NCBI GenBank assembly: GCA_002691605.1
Contig: NZID01000075.1
Location: 1-35,418 of the forward strand
From: Crocinitomicaceae bacterium
Lineage (GTDB): Bacteria > Bacteroidota > Bacteroidia > Flavobacteriales_D > Parvicellaceae
Reading direction: 5' to 3'
DNA length: 35,418 bases
Both the position numbers and the translations under genes were made by a program. Below, piece by piece: positions 2,635-30,822 of this stretch. The notes under the pieces are model-generated. The model was not told where the DNA came from. It worked only from the letters and a program-made list of their open reading frames with translations, and did no database searches. The first letter of the stretch is position 1. Every line of letters starts with the position of its first letter.

Positions 2635-4382
2635 CTTTTATTTTTTAGAAAAAATTGAGCAATTTCCCTTCTATATTGAGTGGGATTTATATCGGGTTTT
2701 TGAGTAAATAATCTAATAAGATATTTTAAAAACAAAGGCTTTTGAGGTAAACTATCTAGAATTAAAGTTGAGCTGGCTAATATTTTAACGTTACTCTCAT
2801 AAAATTGGAGTTCAGCTATATTGTATTTCATTTTTGATTCTTCGCTTGATTGTCTTTCAGATTTCAATTTTTCAACTCTTAGATAGGTAGACTCAAGAAC
2901 ATAAATTTCCGCCAAAACGTCGGCTAGGTTCATAATGATTTCTTGCTCGTGTTCTAGTGCTCTTCCATAAGCATCTGTGGCATACTTGCTTAAAATAAAA
3001 AATAAATATTTAAAATTTTCTAAAAATTGATTTTTAGTTTTTTTTCTAATGCCTATTATTTTTTTAAAAATCTCAAAAGGTATTTTTTTGGTGACAGATT
3101 TTATATCAATTTCTTTAGTATGAAAACCTTTCTTCATAAGCTCTCCAAATGAAAGCATTCTATTTATTTCATTTGTTCCCTCATATATTCTTGTTATTCT
3201 TGCATCTCTGTAGCCCATTTCAATTTTAGTTTCAACACTGTAACCCATTCCACCATGAATTTGTAAGGATTCATCTACACAATAGTCCAAAACCTCAGAG
3301 CCATAAACTTTCATTAAAGAACATTCTACTGTGTAATCTCTCAATGCTTTCAATTTAATTTTGTTAGAAGGAACTGCATTTTCTTTTAGTTCTAACTCTT
3401 TTTTATCGATATTTCTTCCAGTTCTATAAATAGCAGATTCTGCAGTGAATATTTTTCTGGCCATTTCTCCAATTTTGAATTGCATGGCAGTGAATTCTCC
3501 GATACTTTTACCAAATTGTTTTCTTTCATTGGCATAACTAACTGCTTTTCTCATCGCAAATTTCGCCCCGCCTAAAGCAGCTGCAGAAAGTTTAATTCTT
3601 CCAGAATTTAAAATATTTAATGCAATTTTAAATCCATCATTTCTATTCCCTAATAAATTTTCTACTGGAACAGGACAATCTTCGAAAAAAACTTGTCTAG
3701 TCGAAGAACCTTTAATTCCTAGTTTTTTTTCTTCCTCACCAAGAGTAATTCCTCCAAATTCCTTTTCTACTATAAAAGCGGACAGTTTATCATCGTCTTC
3801 AATTTTAGCAAAAACAATAAATAAGTCTGCAAATCCTGCATTAGATATCCACATTTTTTGTCCATTTAGTAAATAGCAGTTTTTTTCTTTATTCAATGTG
3901 GCTTTAGTTCTTCCAGAGTTCGCATCTGAACCTGCAGAAGGTTCTGTTAATGCATAGGCAGTTTTAATTTCAGCAGTTGCAATTCTAGGTAAATATTTTT
4001 CTTTTTGGTATTCATTGCCATAATAAACAATGGGTAATGAACCTATAGATACATGAGTTCCAATAGTAGTTGCAAATGAAAAACCGTAGGCAAAAGCTTC
4101 CATATATAGCAGGCCTGTATTAAAATCAAGATCAGAACCCCCAAATTTTTGCTCTATTGCCACTCCACATAATCCTAATTGTGCAGCTTTTTCTAAAATT
4201 TCAATAATTTCAGGTAAATCTTTAGCAGCTTGATGTTCACTTTCTAGAGAGTGTATTTCCTGATCTAAAAAGTCAAAGATCATTTGCTTTAACATTTTTT
4301 GTTCTTCATTCCATTCTTCAGGGACAAATACAGTGTTATAATCAGTTTTTTTAACTATAAAATCTCCGCCTTTATTATTCAT
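2622..4382 (-). CDS. Acyl-CoA dehydrogenase, long form (VLCAD/ACAD9-like)
   Basis: A flavoprotein of about 586 residues that introduces the trans-2 double bond in acyl-CoA, the first step of beta-oxidation. FAD and substrate motifs are visible: YALTEPSAGSDA, WISNAGFADLF, the SGRIKLSAAALGG and NERKQFGKSI helices, QIHGGMGYS and IYEGTNEINR with the catalytic Glu. The extra 150 or so C-terminal residues are those of the longer VLCAD/ACAD9 type. I place the start at 4382 (MNNKGGDF) rather than the upstream ATG at 4418, which would add 12 residues unlike the family and reach towards the palindrome. It is divergent from prmC, with a 16-bp palindrome between the two, and convergent with marR. It probably works with FadIJ under the same regulator. 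Confidence 0.9.
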   Translation of the reverse strand: MNNKGGDFIVKKTDYNTVFVPEEWNEEQKMLKQMIFDFLDQEIHSLESEHQAAKDLPEIIEILEKAAQLGLCGVAIEQKFGGSDLDFNTGLLYMEAFAYGFSFATTIGTHVSIGSLPIVYYGNEYQKEKYLPRIATAEIKTAYALTEPSAGSDANSGRTKATLNKEKNCYLLNGQKMWISNAGFADLFIVFAKIEDDDKLSAFIVEKEFGGITLGEEEKKLGIKGSSTRQVFFEDCPVPVENLLGNRNDGFKIALNILNSGRIKLSAAALGGAKFAMRKAVSYANERKQFGKSIGEFTAMQFKIGEMARKIFTAESAIYRTGRNIDKKELELKENAVPSNKIKLKALRDYTVECSLMKVYGSEVLDYCVDESLQIHGGMGYSVETKIEMGYRDARITRIYEGTNEINRMLSFGELMKKGFHTKEIDIKSVTKKIPFEIFKKIIGIRKKTKNQFLENFKYLFFILSKYATDAYGRALEHEQEIIMNLADVLAEIYVLESTYLRVEKLKSERQSSEESKMKYNIAELQFYESNVKILASSTLILDSLPQKPLFLKYLIRLFTQKPDINPTQYRREIAQFFLKNKSYNL

Positions 4383-4424
4383 GAGTATTTTTACTATAAT
4401 TTTACATGGAATATACATAAAAAC

Positions 4425-4440
4425 ACAATGCGCGCATTGT
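4425..4440. promoter_or_regulatory. 16-bp perfect palindrome, candidate MarR operator
   Basis: ACAATGCGCGCATTGT is a perfect 16-bp inverted repeat, conspicuously GC-rich at its centre in an AT-rich region. It lies 43-58 bases upstream of the acyl-CoA dehydrogenase start, on the complementary strand. Its half-site ACAATGC is the same as at 2136-2142 in front of marR. It probably overlaps the promoter of the dehydrogenase. It could also affect prmC, whose start lies 28 bases away on the other side. Confidence 0.6.
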
Positions 4441-4467
4441 ATTTTTAATTATTTAACATTCTTTATA

Positions 4468-5328
4468 TTGATTGTAGGCGCCATAGAAAGTTATGAAATT
4501 CAGTACTTAAATGAGTTAGATTCAATCTACCCAAGAAGAGAAATTAAAAATATTTTTTTTGAACTTTTACTATATATTAAAAGGTGGAATAAGATCGATT
4601 ATTTATTAAATAAAAATAAAATTTTAGAAAAAAATGAAATTAAATTTTTAAGTGAATCTTTAAGAAAATTGAAAAATCATATTCCACTTCAGCATATTAT
4701 AGGCTATGTTTTATTCTGTGATCTTAAAATTAAAGTTAATGAGCATGTACTCATTCCAAGACCTGAAACAGAAGAACTAGTTCATATTATTTACAATCAA
4801 AATAAACTTGAAACCTCTTTGAATATATTGGATGTGGGTACAGGATCTGGTTGCATTATTATTGCACTCAAAACATTATTAAAAAACACCAATTGTAAAG
4901 GAATTGATATTTCTCAAAAGGCTTTGAATATTGCTATTGAGAATGCCAATTGTAATAATAGTGACATAGATTTTAAAAATCAGGATATTAATGAATACTC
5001 TGTCAGACCAAATTCTTTTGACATAATTGTGAGTAACCCACCTTACGTACCTATCAGAGAGTTGAAAAAAATACGAACAAATGTGATTGATTTTGAACCC
5101 CATATGGCACTTTTTGTAGAGAATAATAATCCTTTAAAATTTTATCATACAATTGCAGAATTTGGAAGAAATTCTTTAGTTAATAAAGGAAAAATTTATT
5201 TTGAAACACATGAAGATTATGCTTTTGAAATTGTAAATTTATTAAAAGATAAAAAGTATAAAAACTGCATAATTCGTCAAGACTTACAAGGAAAAAATAG
5301 ATTTGTAGAGGCTATCAAATATGATTAA
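4468..5328 (+). CDS. prmC: Release factor glutamine methyltransferase PrmC
   Basis: An SAM-dependent methyltransferase that modifies the Gln of the GGQ motif in peptide chain release factors. From the TTG at 4468 the protein has 286 residues, the usual size. The substrate-recognition signature NPPY is at about 190-193 (SNPPYVP), the SAM loop DVGTGSG at 122-128, and the family motif LIPRPETEELV is present. The open frame extends up to an ATG at 4381, but that would add about 29 residues with no family counterpart and place the 16-bp palindrome inside the gene, so I prefer TTG 4468. It overlaps ligA by 8 bp and probably leads the plus-strand run prmC-ligA-DUF6913-aroK. Confidence 0.88.
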   Translation: MIVGAIESYEIQYLNELDSIYPRREIKNIFFELLLYIKRWNKIDYLLNKNKILEKNEIKFLSESLRKLKNHIPLQHIIGYVLFCDLKIKVNEHVLIPRPETEELVHIIYNQNKLETSLNILDVGTGSGCIIIALKTLLKNTNCKGIDISQKALNIAIENANCNNSDIDFKNQDINEYSVRPNSFDIIVSNPPYVPIRELKKIRTNVIDFEPHMALFVENNNPLKFYHTIAEFGRNSLVNKGKIYFETHEDYAFEIVNLLKDKKYKNCIIRQDLQGKNRFVEAIKYD

Positions 5329-6940
5329 TAAAGAAAATAATAGAATTCTAGAACTAAGAAAATTAATTCACCGATATAATTATGAATATTATGTAAATAG
5401 TAGTTCTAGTATTTCAGATTTTGAATTTGATTTACTTTTAAAAGAGTTAGAAGATCTAGAATCTCAATTCCCGGAATTAAATGACCCTAACTCCCCCACA
5501 AAAAGAGTTGGCGGCGACATAACAAAATCCTTCGAAACAGTTAATCACCAATATCCTATGCTTTCTTTAGCTAATAGTTATTCTAAAGAAGATATAATAG
5601 ATTTTGATACTAGAATTAGGAAAATAATAGACGTACCTTTTTCCTATATATGTGAATTGAAATATGATGGAGTAGCAATTAGTCTGGTTTACGAAAATGG
5701 TCAATTATTAAGAGCAGTAACAAGAGGTGACGGAATTCAGGGTGAAGAGGTTTCCAATAATGTAAGAACCATTTCTTCAATTCCCTTAATACTTTCAGGA
5801 AATCCACCAAAAAAATTAGAAGTTAGAGGAGAAATTATGTTTTCTAAAGCAGCATTCTTAAAATTAAATAATCAAAGAAAAAAAGAGGAGCTTCCGTTAT
5901 TTTCCAATCCTCGAAATACTGCTTCTGGAACCTTAAAATTACAAGATTCATCTTTGGTTGCACAAAGGGATTTAGATTGTTTTTTATATGCTGCTTTTCT
6001 AGAAAATTCGGCTATAGAAAAGGTGTTCGATCATTATCAATTTCTTACAGATTTAGGCTTTAAAACACCCTCTAAAGAAAAAAAATATATTCAACAAGTA
6101 AGTGATGTTAATGGAATAATGAATTTCATTAAATTTTGGGATAAAAAACGAGATAATTTACCATTTGAAATTGATGGAATAGTAATTAAGGTAAATGAAA
6201 TTTCTTTACAAAATGAAATTGGAAATACTTCAAAATCACCAAGATGGGCTATTGCTTACAAATACAAAGCAACTCAAGTAACTACACATCTGGAAAATAT
6301 TATTTATCAAGTTGGAAGAACTGGTGCTATTACTCCGGTAGCCGTTTTAAAACCTGTTGAAATTAGTGGTACAATTGTTCGTAGAGCTAGTGTTCATAAT
6401 GCGGATCAAATAGAAAAATTAGACTTAAGACTGAACGATGTAGTTTATGTTGAAAAAGGCGGAGAAATCATTCCTAAAATAACAGCTGTAGACTTATCAA
6501 AAAGAAAAAAAGATAGTATTCCATTTAACTTTATTGAAAGATGTCCTGAATGTGATTCAGAACTTGAAAGAGACCAAGGCGAGGCGCATCATTATTGTTT
6601 AAATAACAATTCATGTCCTCCTCAAATAAAAGGTAAAATCACTCACTTTATTGGAAGAAAAAAAATGAATATTGAGGGCATTGGAGAGGAAACAATAGAA
6701 CAACTTTTTAATGCAGGACTTATTAATAATATTGCCGATTTATATTCACTTAAAAAAGAAAAAATGCTTCCTCTAGAAAGAATGGCAGAAAAATCAGTAG
6801 ATAACATTCTAATTGGGATTGAAAATAGTAAAACCGCCCCGTTTCATAAAATTCTATTTGGCTTAGGTATAAGATATGTTGGAGAGACAGTAGCCAAAAA
6901 ACTAACTTCAGTTTACAGCCATATTAATGATTTAAGATAA
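5321..6940 (+). CDS. ligA: NAD-dependent DNA ligase LigA, ending early at an in-frame TAA
   Basis: This part encodes 539 residues of LigA, the essential replicative DNA ligase. It has domain Ia, the adenylation domain with the nucleotidyltransferase motif KYDG (AMP-accepting Lys114), the OB fold, a four-Cys zinc finger (CPEC...C....C, near 408-430) and the first helix-hairpin-helix motifs. It stops at TAA 6938-6940. Codons after the stop continue in the same frame with clear LigA sequence (ATFEELCLVDEIGEKIAESI), so this is a nonsense codon and not a natural end. The adenylation module is intact. Part of the HhH domain and the BRCT domain are missing from the product. The cause may be a sequencing or assembly error, a strain polymorphism or tolerated truncation. 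It overlaps prmC by 8 bp. Confidence 0.9.
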   Translation: MINKENNRILELRKLIHRYNYEYYVNSSSSISDFEFDLLLKELEDLESQFPELNDPNSPTKRVGGDITKSFETVNHQYPMLSLANSYSKEDIIDFDTRIRKIIDVPFSYICELKYDGVAISLVYENGQLLRAVTRGDGIQGEEVSNNVRTISSIPLILSGNPPKKLEVRGEIMFSKAAFLKLNNQRKKEELPLFSNPRNTASGTLKLQDSSLVAQRDLDCFLYAAFLENSAIEKVFDHYQFLTDLGFKTPSKEKKYIQQVSDVNGIMNFIKFWDKKRDNLPFEIDGIVIKVNEISLQNEIGNTSKSPRWAIAYKYKATQVTTHLENIIYQVGRTGAITPVAVLKPVEISGTIVRRASVHNADQIEKLDLRLNDVVYVEKGGEIIPKITAVDLSKRKKDSIPFNFIERCPECDSELERDQGEAHHYCLNNNSCPPQIKGKITHFIGRKKMNIEGIGEETIEQLFNAGLINNIADLYSLKKEKMLPLERMAEKSVDNILIGIENSKTAPFHKILFGLGIRYVGETVAKKLTSVYSHINDLR

Positions 6941-7384
6941 GCAACTTTTGAAGAACTTTGCTTAGTAGACGAAATCGGAGAAAAAATAGCAGAATCAATA
7001 GTTGCATACTTTAAGGTAGAACAGCATCACCAAATAATTGACCAGTTATTGGACTCAGGCCTTAAAATGGAAAGTCAAGTAATTAAAAAGAAAAATCAAT
7101 CCAATATTTTAGCTAATAAAAAGATCGTTATTTCAGGTACTTTTAAAAATATATCAAGAGAAAACCTGAAAAATCTAATTGAAGAAAAAGGAGGAAAAAA
7201 CACCAGCTCTGTGAGTAAAAGTACAGATATATTAGTAGCTGGAGAAAACATGGGACCTTCAAAGCTAGAGAAAGCAGAAAAATTCAAAGTAGAGATTTTA
7301 AGTGAAGAAGAATTTTTAATTTTAATACAAAACCTTGCAAATGAAGAAGTTTCAAAACAATTCAAACAAGGAAAATTATTTTAG
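6941..7384 (+). pseudogene. ligA: LigA C-terminal remainder (end of HhH plus BRCT) after the premature stop
   Basis: This is the in-frame continuation of ligA. It starts directly after the TAA with the last helix-hairpin-helix segment (VDEIGEKIAESI). A complete BRCT domain follows, recognisable from KKIVISGTFKNISRENLKNL, IEEKGGK, DILVAGENMGPSKLEKA and EILSEEEFL. With the first part it gives about 687 codons, a normal LigA length. Nothing is lost except one sense codon, so a single substitution (for example AAA, GAA or CAA to TAA) explains the break. A TTG at 7049 could start an 111-residue BRCT fragment, but nothing suggests an independent gene. Confidence 0.88.
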
Positions 7385-17314: not shown

Positions 17315-20209
17315 ATGAAGAATTTTTTTGGACTACTATTTCTAATTTTATTGTGGAGTTGCAGCCAAAATAAAAATAAACCATCTCTATTTGTAAATCC
17401 ATTTATTGGCACTGGAGGACACGGTCATACATTTCCCGGCTCTACTCAACCATTTGGAATGGTTCAACTTAGTCCTGATACTAGAATTGAAGGTTGGGAT
17501 GGCTGCTCAGGATACCATTATTCAGATTCTATAATCTATGGATTCAGTCATACGCACTTGAGTGGTACTGGAATTGGAGATTATTGTGATTTATTACTAA
17601 TGCCTCTACAAGGAGATATTTGTTTTGACAATGGATACAAATCAAAAAATAACTTTAATTACTCCTCAAGTTTTAAAAAACAAAATGAATTTGCTGAACC
17701 AGGTTATTATGAAGTATTATTAGATAAATATGATATAAAATGTAGGTTAACAACTACTAATAGAACTGGTATTCATGAATATTCTTTTAACAATAACAAG
17801 GCTAATCCAAGTGTAGTATTAGATTTAGAGCACAGAGATATTCTATTAGATTGGAATTTAAAAATTAACAATCAGTATTCTATTTCTGGAAAAAGAGTTT
17901 CAAAATCTTGGGCGGACGAGCAACACTTTTATTTTTATTTAGAATTTTCTCACAGTTTTGAATGGCAATTAAATAAAGAAATAAAACCCACTAAAGCATT
18001 TTTAACATTTAAAGATTTAAAAAATCAACCATTAATTGCAAAAGTGGGGATATCTATGGTAAGCGAAGAAAACGCAAAGGAAAATTTAAATACAGAAGCA
18101 AAGCATTGGAATTTTGAAAAATACAAAATAGAGGCTCAGAACTCGTGGGACGAACAGCTCTGTAAAATTGATATTTCAACAAAAAAGGATTCTTTAAAAG
18201 AAATTTTTTATACCTCCATTTATCACACCATGATTGCTCCTAATATTATAAGTGATATTAACGGAGATTTCAGATCTACCGATATGAAAATTCACAACGA
18301 TAGTGTTAATAATTTTACCGTATTCTCACTTTGGGATACCTTTAGGTCTACCCATCCATTATATAATTTAATTGAGCGTAAAAAAACAAGTTTATTTTTA
18401 AATTCTTTTTTAAATCAGTTTAACTACGGTGGTCAGCTACCAATTTGGGAATTATCCGCTAATTATACAGGATGTATGATAGGATATCATGTTGTATCGG
18501 TAATACTTGATGCTTATGTAAAAGAGGTGCCGTACAATAATTATTACAAACTCTATCGGGCAATGTTACACATATCAAACAGAAAAGAATTAGGTATACC
18601 TGAGTACAATGAAAAAGGGTATATATCATCGTTTACTGAGCCAGAGTCTGTTTCCAAAACTTTAGAATATGCATATAATGATTGGTGCATTTATAAAATG
18701 GCTCAAATTTACAATGATTCCAATAACGTATTGAAATATGCTAATCGCGCACAATCTTACAAAAATATATTTAATGAAACTTCAGGATTAATGCAGCCTA
18801 AAACGAATGCTAATTGGAAATCTGGATTTATTGCATCAGAAGTAAATTACAATTATACCGAAGCCAATTCTTGGCAATATAGTTTTTTTGTTCCTCATGA
18901 TATTAAGGGGTTAATTGAACTTCATGGAAGTAAAAAACAATTGGAAGATAAACTAGACGAACTATTTACAGCAAATTCTAAATTGGAGGGAAGAAATCAA
19001 GCTGATATTACTGGTCTCATAGGACAATATGCACATGGAAATGAACCGAGTCACTATATGAGTTTTTTATATAATATGGTAGACCAAACCCAGAAATCCC
19101 AGAAGATGGTTAATACTATCTTAAATACAATGTATTCAACTAACCCCAATGGAGTAGTTGGAAATGAAGATTGCGGTCAAATGTCTTCATGGTATGTACT
19201 AAGTTCTATTGGTCTTTTTGATGTCAATCCTGGGGATCCTTATTATTTAATTCAAACCCCGCTTTTTAAAGAAATAACTTTGAATTTAGAAAATGGAAAT
19301 AAGTTCACTATTTCTACTAATAGTGACGATCCATCATATATTTATATTGAAAGTGTTCAATTAAATGGAGAGAATTTAAACAGAAACTTTTTAGAAATTA
19401 AAGAAATACTTAACGGAGGTATTCTTAAGATAAAAAAATCCAATATTCCAAACAATAATTGGCCCAAAGAAAATTATTATATTACAGCTATTAATAAGCA
19501 ATTGAATATTCTTAAAACTCCAAATATTATCTCTGAATCAAATACTTTTAAAGATTCTATAAAGATTACTATTGATGCTGATAAAAATGCAACTATCTAC
19601 TACAAAACATCGAATTTTTCAGATTTCAAGATTTACCAAGAACCTTTTCATTTAAATCAAACGGATACAGTCTATTCCTATGCTATATTGAATAATAAAT
19701 TAAGCAAAATGGATTGGGCTTATTTTTTAAAATACAATCAAAAAAGAATGGTCCAATTAAATACAAAATATAGTAACCAATATGATGCAGGGGGAAAAAA
19801 TGCATTAGTAGATGGGTTAAAAGGCCCTAACAATTATCTCACAGGGAGATGGCAAGGTTTTTATGGAAATGATTTTGAATGCATCGTAGATTTAGGTCAA
19901 ATTGATAAAGTTCAATTCTTTAATATTGGAGCTATTCAAGATGTTAGATCTTGGATTTGGTTACCTAAGGAAGTGGAATATGAGGTGTCTAATAATGGAA
20001 AAGATTTTAAAAAAATAGGGGCTATAAAACATAATATTTCTAATAACACCTCCGAATCAATTATTCATCAATTTGAACTGAAGCTTAAGAAACCAATTAA
20101 TGCTAAATATGTGAGAATAAAGGCTAAAAACTTTGGAAAATGTCCGTCTTGGCACCTTGGGAGTGGAGGAACCTCTTGGTTATTTTTTGATGAAATAACG
20201 ATTATTTAG
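17315..20209 (+). CDS. GH92 alpha-mannosidase lipoprotein with C-terminal discoidin-like domain
   Basis: A 964-residue predicted lipoprotein (lipobox LLWSC, Cys16). The GH92 N-terminal domain begins with NPFIGTGGHGHTFPGS (about 28-43). The catalytic domain shows FSLWDTFRSTHPLY, HGNEPSH (about 574-580) and the GNEDCGQMSSWY signature (about 615-626). GH92 enzymes are calcium-dependent exo-acting alpha-mannosidases, often on N-glycans. A chitobiase-like beta segment follows (around 745-810), then a discoidin/F5-8C-like module (about 820-962) closely resembling the one at the end of the GH20 protein nearby. It is co-directional with the sugar transporter and convergent with cutC (4-bp gap). There is no acidic surface-export signal directly after the lipid Cys, so a periplasm-facing location is likelier. 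Linkage specificity is unknown. Confidence 0.93.
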   Translation: MKNFFGLLFLILLWSCSQNKNKPSLFVNPFIGTGGHGHTFPGSTQPFGMVQLSPDTRIEGWDGCSGYHYSDSIIYGFSHTHLSGTGIGDYCDLLLMPLQGDICFDNGYKSKNNFNYSSSFKKQNEFAEPGYYEVLLDKYDIKCRLTTTNRTGIHEYSFNNNKANPSVVLDLEHRDILLDWNLKINNQYSISGKRVSKSWADEQHFYFYLEFSHSFEWQLNKEIKPTKAFLTFKDLKNQPLIAKVGISMVSEENAKENLNTEAKHWNFEKYKIEAQNSWDEQLCKIDISTKKDSLKEIFYTSIYHTMIAPNIISDINGDFRSTDMKIHNDSVNNFTVFSLWDTFRSTHPLYNLIERKKTSLFLNSFLNQFNYGGQLPIWELSANYTGCMIGYHVVSVILDAYVKEVPYNNYYKLYRAMLHISNRKELGIPEYNEKGYISSFTEPESVSKTLEYAYNDWCIYKMAQIYNDSNNVLKYANRAQSYKNIFNETSGLMQPKTNANWKSGFIASEVNYNYTEANSWQYSFFVPHDIKGLIELHGSKKQLEDKLDELFTANSKLEGRNQADITGLIGQYAHGNEPSHYMSFLYNMVDQTQKSQKMVNTILNTMYSTNPNGVVGNEDCGQMSSWYVLSSIGLFDVNPGDPYYLIQTPLFKEITLNLENGNKFTISTNSDDPSYIYIESVQLNGENLNRNFLEIKEILNGGILKIKKSNIPNNNWPKENYYITAINKQLNILKTPNIISESNTFKDSIKITIDADKNATIYYKTSNFSDFKIYQEPFHLNQTDTVYSYAILNNKLSKMDWAYFLKYNQKRMVQLNTKYSNQYDAGGKNALVDGLKGPNNYLTGRWQGFYGNDFECIVDLGQIDKVQFFNIGAIQDVRSWIWLPKEVEYEVSNNGKDFKKIGAIKHNISNNTSESIIHQFELKLKKPINAKYVRIKAKNFGKCPSWHLGSGGTSWLFFDEITII

Positions 20210-20213
20210 TAAG

Positions 20214-20879
20214 TTATGTTGCTTTTAATTTTTCCAAAATAAATTTGAATTTTTCGGTTTCAATTTCTCCTGCCTTATCGATACTGAAATGTAATCCATC
20301 AATCCCGATATTTAAAAAGAGTAGACAATTAACTACAGATACTCCACCACCAGCTAATATTTTTACTTTTCTATTTCTAATATTTACTATAGATTTTATA
20401 TTGTTTAGTCCTTTTTCTGCATTGATTCCTCTTCCAGAAGTTAGTACCCAATCAAATCCCATTTCAGAAATCTCTATTATACTTTCAGTTAACTTTTCGC
20501 ATTCATCTATAGCCTTGTGAAAAGTGCATTTCAAACCAAGATTCTTTGCTTTTTCCAATAATTGGCTATTTACTTTAAAATCAATAGTTTTATTTTTCAA
20601 AGCGCCAAATACCACCCCTTCCGCTCCATTTTCTTTTGCAGATTCAATAGATTTAATCATATTAGTAACATCTTTCTTATTATAATTAAATCCATTTGCA
20701 TGTGGACGAATCATAATAAATTTTTCTCCCTTAAAAATATGATTTGCTTTTTTTTGAAATACTAATGAGGGGGTCAATCCATCGAGACTTAAATTTTCAC
20801 ATAATTCTATTCTTGGAATATTAAATTCTTGTGCATGAATTAACCCATTTACCGTAGAGATACAAGCTTCTAATATCAT
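20214..20879 (-). CDS. cutC: CutC-family protein
   Basis: A 221-residue TIM-barrel protein of the CutC family, recognisable from ILEACISTVNGLIHAQ at the N-terminus, RIELCENLSLDGLTPS, IMIRPHANGFNY, EGVVFGAL, TFHKAIDE, LTSGRG and ILAGGGV. The start is ATG 20879, overlapping the TGA of GH20 as ATGA; an upstream ATG at 20909 would add ten residues unlike the family. CutC was named for copper homeostasis in E. coli, but its biochemical role is unsettled. Here it is coupled to glycan hydrolases and no copper genes are near, which points to a role in sugar or amino-sugar metabolism. That role is inference from context. It is cytoplasmic, as no signal peptide is seen. Confidence 0.92.
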   Translation of the reverse strand: MILEACISTVNGLIHAQEFNIPRIELCENLSLDGLTPSLVFQKKANHIFKGEKFIMIRPHANGFNYNKKDVTNMIKSIESAKENGAEGVVFGALKNKTIDFKVNSQLLEKAKNLGLKCTFHKAIDECEKLTESIIEISEMGFDWVLTSGRGINAEKGLNNIKSIVNIRNRKVKILAGGGVSVVNCLLFLNIGIDGLHFSIDKAGEIETEKFKFILEKLKAT

Positions 20880-23107
20880 TTGAGAATAATTTCGTCCGTA
20901 AATAACCAACAGCCAGCACCAGCAGCTTCATGCCATGAAGGAAGTGATTCAAAATTTTTGGCAACTAATTTTATATGTTTTGAAGAAATCTGAATGTTTT
21001 TAAAATGAGCATTTTTAATGAATTTCCCTCTTTTAGAAATTTCATCAAAATTATTTAAAGAATCAATTTTATTCCAATTCTTTCCATTTGAAGAAGAATA
21101 TAAATAAATGGATTTTGGAATAACAATCCAAGAATTTATATACTGATAAAAATTAATAGATACATCGTTTATATAAGTTATGGAATCTAAATCTATTGAA
21201 ATTTCAAAATCTGAACCAAAAAAGCCCTGCCAGTTGCCATCTTTGTAATTTAAATTACCAAGTCTGCCATCAGTTAATGAATTTTCTCCATTTGCTGAAT
21301 AATACTCACTGTAGGGATATCGATATTTATAATTCTTATTTAAAGCCTTATGAATTTCAATTTTTTGATGAACCTCAGGTCCATATTTTTTATCATTTTT
21401 AAAGGCTTGCACATATAAAGTATTTGACTTTTTTATATTGATACTATCGCCGTAGTCTATTTGCTTGAATATTTCATTTCCAAAATGGTAACAGAATTTT
21501 AGATTTTTAATTTTAGAGTTAATTGTTGCATGAGTAGTATTTGTGTGATGATTCAATACAATATTAACTGGATTGGCTTCAATTCCATATTTAACCTTAA
21601 ATCGATCTAATAAATAATATTGGTCTCCTACTCTTTTTTGAAAATTTGAATAACTATCTTTTTCTTTTGACCAAAGCACTTCACTCATAGCTAGCATTCT
21701 TGGAAAGGCTTGTTGATCTAATTTTTCTTCATTAGGAATTCTTTCGCTCCATAAATTACATTCCCCACCTATAATTAATTTTTTTTCAGATGAATCTAAA
21801 TTTTCTCCCATGGGGTTAAAGCTAAATACCTTTTCTAAGTCAATAGAATTTATATCGTAGTCAAAATAGCAATGAGAGGTAGGGGACATGATTGCCTTTT
21901 TGCCCTGTTTTACAGCATTAATGCCGCCCGAAACACCTCTCCAAGATTGAATACTGATAGGAGAATCTATATGACTTTCTAATATTTCGTCCCAACCAAT
22001 AATTTCACGATTTTTTCTTGAAAGAATTTTACTTATTCTCTCAATGAAATAACTTTGAAGTTCATGTTCATTTGCCAAATTGTTCTGCTGCATTCTCATT
22101 TGACATTTTTTACATTTTTCCCATCTTGATTTAGGAGCTTCATCTCCACCAATATGAATTCTTTTACTTGGAAATAAAGGGATTATTTCATCAAATATAT
22201 TTTCTAGAAAAATAAAAACTGAATCATTTCCAGCACAATATATTTCTTTAAAAACACCCCAGGAATTAGCAACCTCAATTGGTTCTTGTTGACAAGACAA
22301 AAAAGGATATGAAGCAATTGCTGCTGTAGAGTGCCCAGGTAATTCAATTTCAGGAATCACTTCTATATTTCTTTTTTGAGCATATTGAACTACCTCTTGA
22401 ATTTCTTCTTTGGTATAAAAACCACCATATTTTCCTAACGAATCTTTTCTGTAAGAGCCAATAGTATTCAATTTTGGATATTGATCTATTTGAATTCTCC
22501 AACCTTGATCTTCTGTCAAATGCCAGTGAAGAACATTCATTTTATAAAAAGCCAATAATTCTATGTATTTTTTAATTGTTTTTACTGAAAAAAAATGCCT
22601 ACAACAGTCTAATAAAAAACCTCTGTGAGAAAATAAATTGGAATCATTAATTTCAAGACAAGGAATTCTCACACCATTATCAATGTTTTTATTGTTTAAA
22701 AAAATCAATTGAGAAAGTGTCTGAAGACCATAAAAAATTCCTTTTAAATTCCCATTTAAAAAAATTTTATTTTTACTTACTTTTAAATGATAATAATCAT
22801 TTTTAGAATTGGTATCCTTACTTAATTTTATAGTAAAGTTAGGATTGAGCTCATTTAGTATTAAAGTTTTATCCTTAGAATAATAGTTTTTAAATTGAGT
22901 ATTAATTATTTTGAAATATTCTTTAAAATCTAAATTATCACTTTTACACTTAAGATAATTAAAAAAATAACCCTCACAGATAATTACTTTATTTGGTAGA
23001 GGAATTATGGAGGTATTAATTATTTTTTTTTCTAGACTAGTTTCGTTACAGCCAGTTATTAAAAATAAAAAAATAAAATGAAGTAGGTTTTTAATCTTTC
23101 CACTCAA
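20876..23107 (-). CDS. GH20 beta-N-acetylhexosaminidase lipoprotein with discoidin-like C-terminus
   Basis: From TTG 23107 the protein has 743 residues, with a lipoprotein signal (KIKNLLHFIFLFLITGC, Cys20). An N-terminal GH20b domain precedes the catalytic barrel, with HWHLTEDQGW (194-203) and the catalytic pair Asp322-Glu323 in HIGGDEAPKSRW. A chitobiase-type region follows, then a C-terminal discoidin-like module (WQGFFGSDFEISIDL to the end). It removes terminal GlcNAc or GalNAc by substrate-assisted catalysis. The open frame extends to an ATG at 23197, but that would put 30 residues before the lipoprotein signal, so I choose the TTG. It overlaps the asparaginase gene by 17 bp upstream and cutC by ATGA downstream, so the three form one transcriptional unit. 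Confidence 0.92.
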   Translation of the reverse strand: MSGKIKNLLHFIFLFLITGCNETSLEKKIINTSIIPLPNKVIICEGYFFNYLKCKSDNLDFKEYFKIINTQFKNYYSKDKTLILNELNPNFTIKLSKDTNSKNDYYHLKVSKNKIFLNGNLKGIFYGLQTLSQLIFLNNKNIDNGVRIPCLEINDSNLFSHRGFLLDCCRHFFSVKTIKKYIELLAFYKMNVLHWHLTEDQGWRIQIDQYPKLNTIGSYRKDSLGKYGGFYTKEEIQEVVQYAQKRNIEVIPEIELPGHSTAAIASYPFLSCQQEPIEVANSWGVFKEIYCAGNDSVFIFLENIFDEIIPLFPSKRIHIGGDEAPKSRWEKCKKCQMRMQQNNLANEHELQSYFIERISKILSRKNREIIGWDEILESHIDSPISIQSWRGVSGGINAVKQGKKAIMSPTSHCYFDYDINSIDLEKVFSFNPMGENLDSSEKKLIIGGECNLWSERIPNEEKLDQQAFPRMLAMSEVLWSKEKDSYSNFQKRVGDQYYLLDRFKVKYGIEANPVNIVLNHHTNTTHATINSKIKNLKFCYHFGNEIFKQIDYGDSINIKKSNTLYVQAFKNDKKYGPEVHQKIEIHKALNKNYKYRYPYSEYYSANGENSLTDGRLGNLNYKDGNWQGFFGSDFEISIDLDSITYINDVSINFYQYINSWIVIPKSIYLYSSSNGKNWNKIDSLNNFDEISKRGKFIKNAHFKNIQISSKHIKLVAKNFESLPSWHEAAGAGCWLFTDEIILK

Positions 23108-24089
23108 TATCGTATTGGCTATCGATAAGTTTAGATCTTTGAATATCCTGATAAGCATAATTAAAACCTGAATATAAGCTATATGAACCAATTTCACCCT
23201 CTTTATTCATAGCAATAAATCCAACTTGCAAATCCTTCAAATTTTTATTTGATTTTTTAATTCTTTCAATAGCTGACTTACATGCTTGCTGAGGGCTTAA
23301 TCCATTTCGCATTAATTCTACTATTGTATGCGAACCACAAATTTTAATAATGGCTTCTCCAAGGCCAGTTGCGCAGGCAGCACCAACTTCATTATCTAAG
23401 TAAACTCCAGCTCCAATAATTGGGGAGTCGCCTACTCTTCCTTCCATTTTATAGGCCCATCCGCTAGTGGTACATCCAGTAGCTAAATTACCTTGGTGAT
23501 CTAATGCAATCATCGCAATAGTATCGTGATTTTCATGGTTGATAGCAGGAAGTTTATAATTATTTTCTATTTTCCATTCTTCCCAACTTTTCTTTGAATT
23601 TTCTGTTAAAAGATTCGTATGCTTAAATCCATTTTTCATAGCAAAATTATAGGCCCCTTCACCACTAAGCATAACATGGGGAGTATCTTCCATTACTTTC
23701 CTTGCAACAGAAATGGGGTTCTCTATATTTTGTAAATAACTTATCGAACCACAATTAAACTCATGATCCATAATGCAGGCATCTAGAGTTACATTTCCGT
23801 TAGCGTCTGGTAAACCCCCAATACCTACACTTGAATTTTCTGGATCAGATTCTATGACATTTAGACCCTTTTCAATAGCATCTAATGCAGAGCCGTTGTT
23901 TTTTAAAACTTTATTTGCAGATTGGTTGGCTTTTAGTCCAGAACTCCAAGTAGAGATAACCTTAGTTTGATTGAGATTTGCAATCGGGAGAATTTCTTTT
24001 ATTTCCGTATTTCCGCTGGCTTTACACCCATCGATAATTAATGCGGTAGTTCCAAGTCCTCCAATTTTTACAAATTCTCTCCTTTTCAT
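23091..24089 (-). CDS. N4-(beta-N-acetylglucosaminyl)-L-asparaginase (aspartylglucosaminidase)
   Basis: A 332-residue Ntn-hydrolase precursor. The self-processing site is ENHDT-IAM with the nucleophile Thr190, followed by TTSGWAYKMEGRVGDSPIIGAG and ATGLGEA. It resembles the Elizabethkingia (Flavobacterium) meningosepticum enzyme closely along its length, as far as I recall that sequence. It splits the amide between GlcNAc and Asn, the last step in N-glycan removal. The N-terminus MKRREFVKIGGLG looks like a Tat signal, and IIDGC (Cys22) could be a lipobox, so it may be exported folded. It is the first gene of the unit asparaginase-GH20-cutC. It lies head-away from panD with a 67-bp gap holding no evident signal. 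Confidence 0.93.
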   Translation of the reverse strand: MKRREFVKIGGLGTTALIIDGCKASGNTEIKEILPIANLNQTKVISTWSSGLKANQSANKVLKNNGSALDAIEKGLNVIESDPENSSVGIGGLPDANGNVTLDACIMDHEFNCGSISYLQNIENPISVARKVMEDTPHVMLSGEGAYNFAMKNGFKHTNLLTENSKKSWEEWKIENNYKLPAINHENHDTIAMIALDHQGNLATGCTTSGWAYKMEGRVGDSPIIGAGVYLDNEVGAACATGLGEAIIKICGSHTIVELMRNGLSPQQACKSAIERIKKSNKNLKDLQVGFIAMNKEGEIGSYSLYSGFNYAYQDIQRSKLIDSQYDIEWKD

Positions 24090-29327: not shown

Positions 29328-29463
29328 AATTGTTATGAAAATATTCATATTTAGAGAGAGTTCACTCTATAAATTCTATTGTTGAAAATTTTTTTAAAAA
29401 CTTCTTAAATTAATTTCTAATTACTTAAAACTTCTATTTATTTTAGGTTTAAATATTATAATT
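29328..29463. other. AT-rich intergenic region after umuC
   Basis: This 136-bp stretch contains a short imperfect hairpin (AGAGT TC ACTCT near 29360) and then a poly-T/A region. It could hold the end of the umuDC transcript and the promoter of the 55-residue gene. No clear consensus promoter was seen. Confidence 0.3.
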
Positions 29464-29631
29464 ATGGAATCAGGAGAATTAACTACGCAAATAGAATCTT
29501 TAAAAACAAAATTAACCGGAAATATGATGGAAGATATGGAGATTCGAGATCAAATCCATAATTTAGAAATGAAGTTAAAAGGGGTAAAACCAGAAGATTC
29601 TCATTTTGATTGTATAGGATGCGGTTCGTAA
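29464..29631 (+). CDS. Small 55-residue protein with C-terminal CxxC motif
   Basis: A 55-residue open frame from ATG 29464 to TAA 29631. Most of it is predicted helix or coiled coil (about 4-40, many Glu, Lys and Leu at heptad-like spacing: QIESLKTKLTG, EDMEIRDQIHNLEMKLKG). It ends in DSHFDCIGCGS with Cys50 and Cys53, a possible metal or redox site at the extreme C-terminus. I believe similar short proteins with this ending occur in other Bacteroidota, but I cannot verify it here. It has no signal peptide. It stands alone 136 bp after umuC. The function is unknown; the balanced codon use and specific motif argue that it is a real gene. Confidence 0.75.
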   Translation: MESGELTTQIESLKTKLTGNMMEDMEIRDQIHNLEMKLKGVKPEDSHFDCIGCGS

Positions 29632-29654
29632 TTACTCTCAGATTTCATTTAGAA

Positions 29655-29681
29655 TTTCTTAACTAAGTCAACTTTTTCTTA
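29655..29681 (+). repeat. Direct repeat copy A, promoter-like element
   Basis: Its core ACTAAGTCAACT (29662-29673) is repeated at 30039-30050 and less exactly at 30604-30615. The flanks TTTCTTA and TTTTTCTTA are also shared with copy B. It ends in TTACTTTG, near a -7 consensus, 23 bases before the next possible start, so it may be part of a promoter. Confidence 0.5.
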
Positions 29682-29703
29682 CTTTGATGTCCAAATATTA
29701 AAT

Positions 29704-30039
29704 GTGTCTAATAAATATTTAAAAATGGAAAAATTTAATTTTACTGAATCTGATAAAGTGTATTTATGGGAACAAATAGAGAAATGGGATTTCTTTCAGG
29801 ATTCTGATAATTTAGGTGAACTAATAATAGTTACAGTCCCAGAATTTGATATTCCTGAATTAGGAAATTGGCAATTCCAATTGAGTTTAACTAAAGACAA
29901 TGCTAAAGATTTTGAAATTCGAAGTGGATTAAGTAATGAGTAATTATTTTTTCCAAGTTCTGATGAACTAACTGTCGCTGTTTACACTGAAAGCTGGGAT
30001 TTTGTTACAGATTTCACTTCCGCCCCTTTACTTTCTTAA
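29704..30039 (+). pseudogene. Small unknown gene interrupted by an in-frame TAA
   Basis: The frame encodes 79 residues to TAA 29941-29943. It then continues open for 31 more codons to TAA 30037-30039, reading LFFPSSDELTVAVYTESWDF and on, which looks like normal protein. The whole would be about 112 residues, or 105 from the second Met at 29725 (MEKFNFTESDKVYLWEQ). It is acidic and rich in Trp and aromatic residues, with no signal peptide or membrane segment. The family was not recognised. The 79-residue product may be the real one and the extension chance, but 31 codons of sensible composition in an AT-rich region make a premature stop more likely. It follows repeat A and ends inside repeat B. 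Confidence 0.5.
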
Positions 30040-30060
30040 TTAAGTTAACTTTTTTCTATA
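30032..30060 (+). repeat. Direct repeat copy B, promoter-like element
   Basis: It matches copy A over about 27 positions with a few substitutions and two single-base insertions. The core is ATTAAGTTAACT, containing the perfect 10-bp palindrome AAGTTAACTT (30042-30051). It ends in TATATTCA, at the place where copy A has a -7-like box, 25 bases before the 153-residue gene. Confidence 0.5.
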
Positions 30061-30084
30061 TTCATAGTTGACTAAAATTAAAAT

Positions 30085-30546: not shown

Positions 30547-30549
30547 AAA

Positions 30550-30570
30550 AAAATGATAAATCATCATTTT
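30550..30570. terminator. Hairpin, possible bidirectional terminator
   Basis: AAAATGAT and ATCATTTT form 8-bp arms around a five-base loop directly after the 153-residue gene, with A residues before and T residues at the end. The stem is AT-only and therefore weak. The position between convergent genes fits a terminator. Confidence 0.4.
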
Positions 30571-30822
30571 CTAAATAATTAATATTCCAATCGAGTATTG
30601 CCCATTAAGTTAAGTAAAGATTTTTAATTAAGCATTCATCTTTTATTTTGCTGTTACTAAGTTTAAAATTTTATACCTCGTTGATTAAAGGTATAAATAA
30701 GGTGCAAATTTGTACCTATTATCGAAAAATAACACAAACTAATTATAAAATAACAGTATCATTATTTAATAGTTATAAATTAAATATTTACAATGTTTTT
30801 GTGGTAGTTTGTTTTGTATTGG
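30571..30822. other. Non-coding region between convergent genes, with degenerate repeat copy C
   Basis: It contains ATTAAGTTAAGT at 30604-30615, which matches the core of repeat B in 11 of 12 positions, then AT-rich sequence. A 65-codon plus-strand frame at 30648-30845 is Ile/Tyr/Val-rich low-complexity sequence running into mnmE and is not credible as a gene. A short imperfect repeat, GGTATAAATAAGGTGCAAATTTGTACC region (about 30690-30716), could fold. Nothing else was recognised. Confidence 0.4.

Follow-up and report, generated by a model that had tools for sequence, protein, structure and literature searches.

The NAD+-dependent DNA ligase LigA is essential in bacteria, and the ATP-dependent ligases that bacteria carry are additional to this essential NAD type (reviewed in PMC5052709). 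Bacterial LigA, as represented by the profiles TIGR00575 and NF005932 and by the E. coli enzyme (PDB 2OWO), contains adenylation, OB, zinc-finger, HhH and BRCT domains in a usual order, and the ligA gene studied here has the same domains in that order. It is, however, interrupted by an in-frame TAA codon near the equivalent of residue 540 of E. coli LigA. The gene lies in a stretch of 35,418 nucleotides (the window) from the draft genome of a Crocinitomicaceae bacterium, an uncultured member of the Flavobacteriales, and we regard an assembly error or a rare strain variant, rather than new biology, as the most likely origin of the stop.

The ligA frame and its stop codon

The initial annotation had placed this TAA inside the ligA gene, with LigA sequence in the same frame on both sides. 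Translation and the NCBIfam LigA profiles confirm this, since 539 residues before the stop and 147 residues after it occupy consecutive profile positions. The features of the region are as follows.

4381..5328, + strand: prmC, release-factor glutamine methyltransferase, the upstream gene (TIGR03534 above cut-off; translation)
5321..6937, + strand: ligA codons 1–539, with adenylation, OB, zinc-finger and most of the HhH domain (PF01653, PF03120, PF03119, first half of PF12826; TIGR00575)
6938..6940, + strand: in-frame TAA of ligA (sequence and translation; a sense codon in every aligned relative)
6941..7384, + strand: remainder of ligA up to the TAG at 7382–7384, with the second half of PF12826 (HHH_2) and PF00533 (BRCT); dN like that of intact relatives

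The residues before and after the TAA share one frame, so that no insertion or deletion is present at the stop. With TIGR00575 and NF005932 the part before the stop ends at profile positions 524 and 532, respectively, and the part after it picks up at 527 and 536; because consecutive stretches of the LigA models are matched, the two halves are one gene. Already codons 1–539 alone place the gene in the LigA family, scoring 652.3 bits with TIGR00575 (cut-off 444.45) and 652.8 bits with NF005932 (cut-off 369). The alignment to E. coli LigA is in register until residue 533. All five domains are found over the two halves, with the end of the HhH domain and the BRCT domain encoded only past the stop. 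The stop splits the Pfam HHH_2 match (profile positions 2–29 before, 32–64 after) and the BRCT match lies entirely downstream, which bears out the earlier statement that the product would miss part of the HhH domain and the BRCT domain. The next in-frame start codons, TTG at 7049 and ATG at 7067, both lie beyond the end of the HhH domain, and reinitiation there would therefore not restore it.

The upstream prmC gene overlaps ligA by 8 bases, is intact with an NPPY motif in its translation, and itself ends with TAA. No second copy of an NAD ligase was found in a search of the genome assembly, and ligA is here an ordinary single-copy chromosomal gene. When the genes of the window were compared by inspection with two relatives of the genus, only ligA had an interior stop in a sense-strand match; the remaining stops reported for the window were antisense shadows or lay in extensions upstream of start codons. 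Elsewhere in the window are glycoside hydrolases of family 92 (17315–20209) and family 20 (20876–23197), whose C-terminal F5/8 type C domains resemble each other, and two stretches (29328–30084 and 30547–30822) without a listed open reading frame of 80 codons. No Rfam match was obtained anywhere in the window.

ligA in related genomes and constraint past the stop

The comparison with related genomes that had been proposed as a check was carried out. Six genomes of the genus have a matching ligA, open in all of them for 690–691 codons, and four others, which are 63–85% complete, gave no ligA match. In 97 aligned relatives we find 13 different residues at the position of the stop and no stop codon; this set was picked as long open frames, with some genomes included twice, and alone could not reveal a broken copy. 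The genome searches for ligA do not require an open frame. One of them covered 299 genomes and is reported as its listed matches, without a rate; among these, broken ligA frames occur only in scattered other drafts of the order. In G277 the frame shifts at a run of A around residue 527 (G277:C5 near 5890, L157) and G046 has several frame breaks, in both cases in contig interiors, while in G222 the frame changes within a stretch containing N's. No relative has ligA split at the position of this stop. A search of viral contigs found no match. In one other family (G080, G085, G087, G093, G143 and G254) the LigA frames have 820–880 codons and match the query no further than about residue 480, which implies an insertion or an altered HhH region.

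The ratio of dN after the stop to dN before it is 1.48–1.75 for pairs including the window sequence and 1.33–2.08 for intact pairs at comparable distance. The excess of dN past the stop on the window branch, estimated from one trio, is 0.023 with a 95% confidence interval from −0.033 to 0.075. The relaxed constraint expected of a pseudogene after its lesion is thus not seen, although a very recent lesion would escape this test. Judged by these substitution rates, the codons past the stop are constrained like those of intact relatives, with no sign of decay. The stop is at most recent, its age being bounded only roughly with synonymous sites near saturation.

Assembly quality and a second stray stop

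The draft genome consists of 92 contigs and is 85.62% complete. In the sampled contigs N's make up roughly 0.2–1.7% and are arranged in blocks, and they fall on codon positions 3, 1 and 2 in 596, 168 and 109 cases, respectively. Being mostly at third codon positions, the N's point to masked strain differences and not to random gaps, and mark the assembly as a consensus of mixed strains. Merging of contigs in the manner of Minimus2 (as in PMC5507172) was considered as the source of the N blocks and set aside as only a guess. The contig begins with an N-free part, which is the window; its first N follows at 35419, just past the window end.

A second stray TAA occurs in the same assembly inside a gene for a 3-hydroxyacyl-CoA dehydrogenase (G000:C20 9744–9746, minus strand; L132). 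It separates two Pfam parts which are both intact, and is also located in an N-free stretch flanked by N blocks. The dehydrogenase is uninterrupted in nine relatives of the genus, with open frames near 300 codons in at least eight of them. Thus we find both a mixed-strain consensus, from the codon positions of the N's, and a further isolated lesion, as expected for errors of the consensus. About 5.6% of random substitutions in these genes yield a stop, most often TAA, and two stray stops in the approximately 586 kb of sampled stretches that were surveyed therefore require wrong or minority bases at no more than a low rate.

These two stops are a lower bound, as the coding-score scan is insensitive: a first run over 248 kb detected both ligA and the dehydrogenase, and a rerun over 586 kb with pooled training missed the dehydrogenase. 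The rerun instead pointed to two different candidates in the same genome, one in G001 and one in G004, none of which was judged by eye to be a broken gene. Most of the homology-based internal stops in the survey, which were examined in part, looked like antisense shadows. A free-standing BRCT open reading frame of 82 residues (G000:C74 7537–7782, L148) was considered as a second BRCT place and rejected, being a separate open reading frame whose TAA results from a match running past its own end.

Explanations of the stop and comparison with known ligases

The sense codons in the usable relatives, the constraint past the stop, the mixed-strain consensus and the second stray stop together favour a sequencing error or a strain variant, both of which the initial annotation had listed among its possibilities. 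We assign a probability of about 0.8 to the reading that the stop is an error of the draft consensus or a minority variant, in an ordinary ligA, and that the population makes full-length LigA. The assembly would then have, in its consensus of a mixed population, a single base that is wrong or comes from a minority strain, the cells of the species would produce the full-length enzyme, and most reads of the population, we infer, would show a sense codon. Against an error speaks that the base is called unambiguously, in an N-free stretch and outside any homopolymer, and that both stray stops are TAA; the latter point is weakened because TAA is the likeliest product of random change in these genes. 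The unambiguous call would fit a genuine nonsense mutation of very recent date, either fixed in the species or common there, with the cells tolerating a less active LigA that stops after residue 539. Loss of the BRCT domain alone is indeed tolerated, as nick sealing proceeds without it in vitro and, in E. coli, also in vivo (PMC10504179), but the truncated product would also lose half of HHH_2, the HhH domain clamps the DNA (PMC5052709), a larger C-terminal truncation of LigA is adenylated yet abolishes ligation (PMC1684257), and decay past the stop is absent. We therefore regard such a mutation as unlikely. That the stop is fixed and LigA functions with 539 residues, lacking the HhH end and BRCT, or by readthrough or in two pieces, seems to us decidedly improbable; a fixed stop would be informative about the extent of the HhH domain that LigA requires in vivo.

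Readthrough by a suppressor tRNA or by weak termination, yielding some full-length LigA, would agree with the persisting constraint and with the dehydrogenase as a second gene with a similar TAA and a preserved frame. However, TAA terminates 14 of the 28 open reading frames counted in the window, including prmC, which also rules out a reassigned TAA code; the enzyme that modifies release factors is encoded by an intact prmC, so that nothing there suggests weak termination; and no suppressor tRNA was found in the sampled stretches, a weak point as these are part of the genome. Readthrough is accordingly very improbable. The search for another ligase elsewhere in the genome did find an ATP-dependent enzyme on a different contig (G000:C55, L032:1102–2772, minus strand), a frame of 556 codons above the TIGR04120 cut-off. 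Hence the second ligase suggested earlier exists, but it does not explain the stop, because the genus carries such ligases beside intact ligA: five further genomes of the genus have PF01068 ligases, and of these G003, G004, G006 and G007 also have an intact ligA, whereas in G008 ligA was not found. Since the enzyme is of the TIGR04120 type, encoded between helicase-like and metallo-beta-lactamase-like open reading frames, and ligA is constrained over its entire length, we give the least credence of all to the idea that it replaced LigA and left ligA free to decay. The C55 ligase is of the auxiliary type and no replacement for LigA.

The preferred reading of a consensus error or minority variant calls for caution when an essential gene of a draft consensus genome has a lone in-frame stop: the reads and other genes of that assembly should be inspected before biology is inferred. 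As to known ligases, in BRCT-less LigA (Deinococcus radiodurans and E. coli constructs; PMC10504179) a C-terminal truncation removes the BRCT domain as it would here, but the truncation here would additionally remove half of HHH_2. LigA sequence distributed over two reading frames, as in the present gene, is found in two-chain NAD+ ligases (PDB 9HU3) and, as mentioned in PMC1684257, in the split ligase of bacteriophage T5; in 9HU3 the zinc/HhH region forms a separate chain, and the division lies well before the stop seen here.
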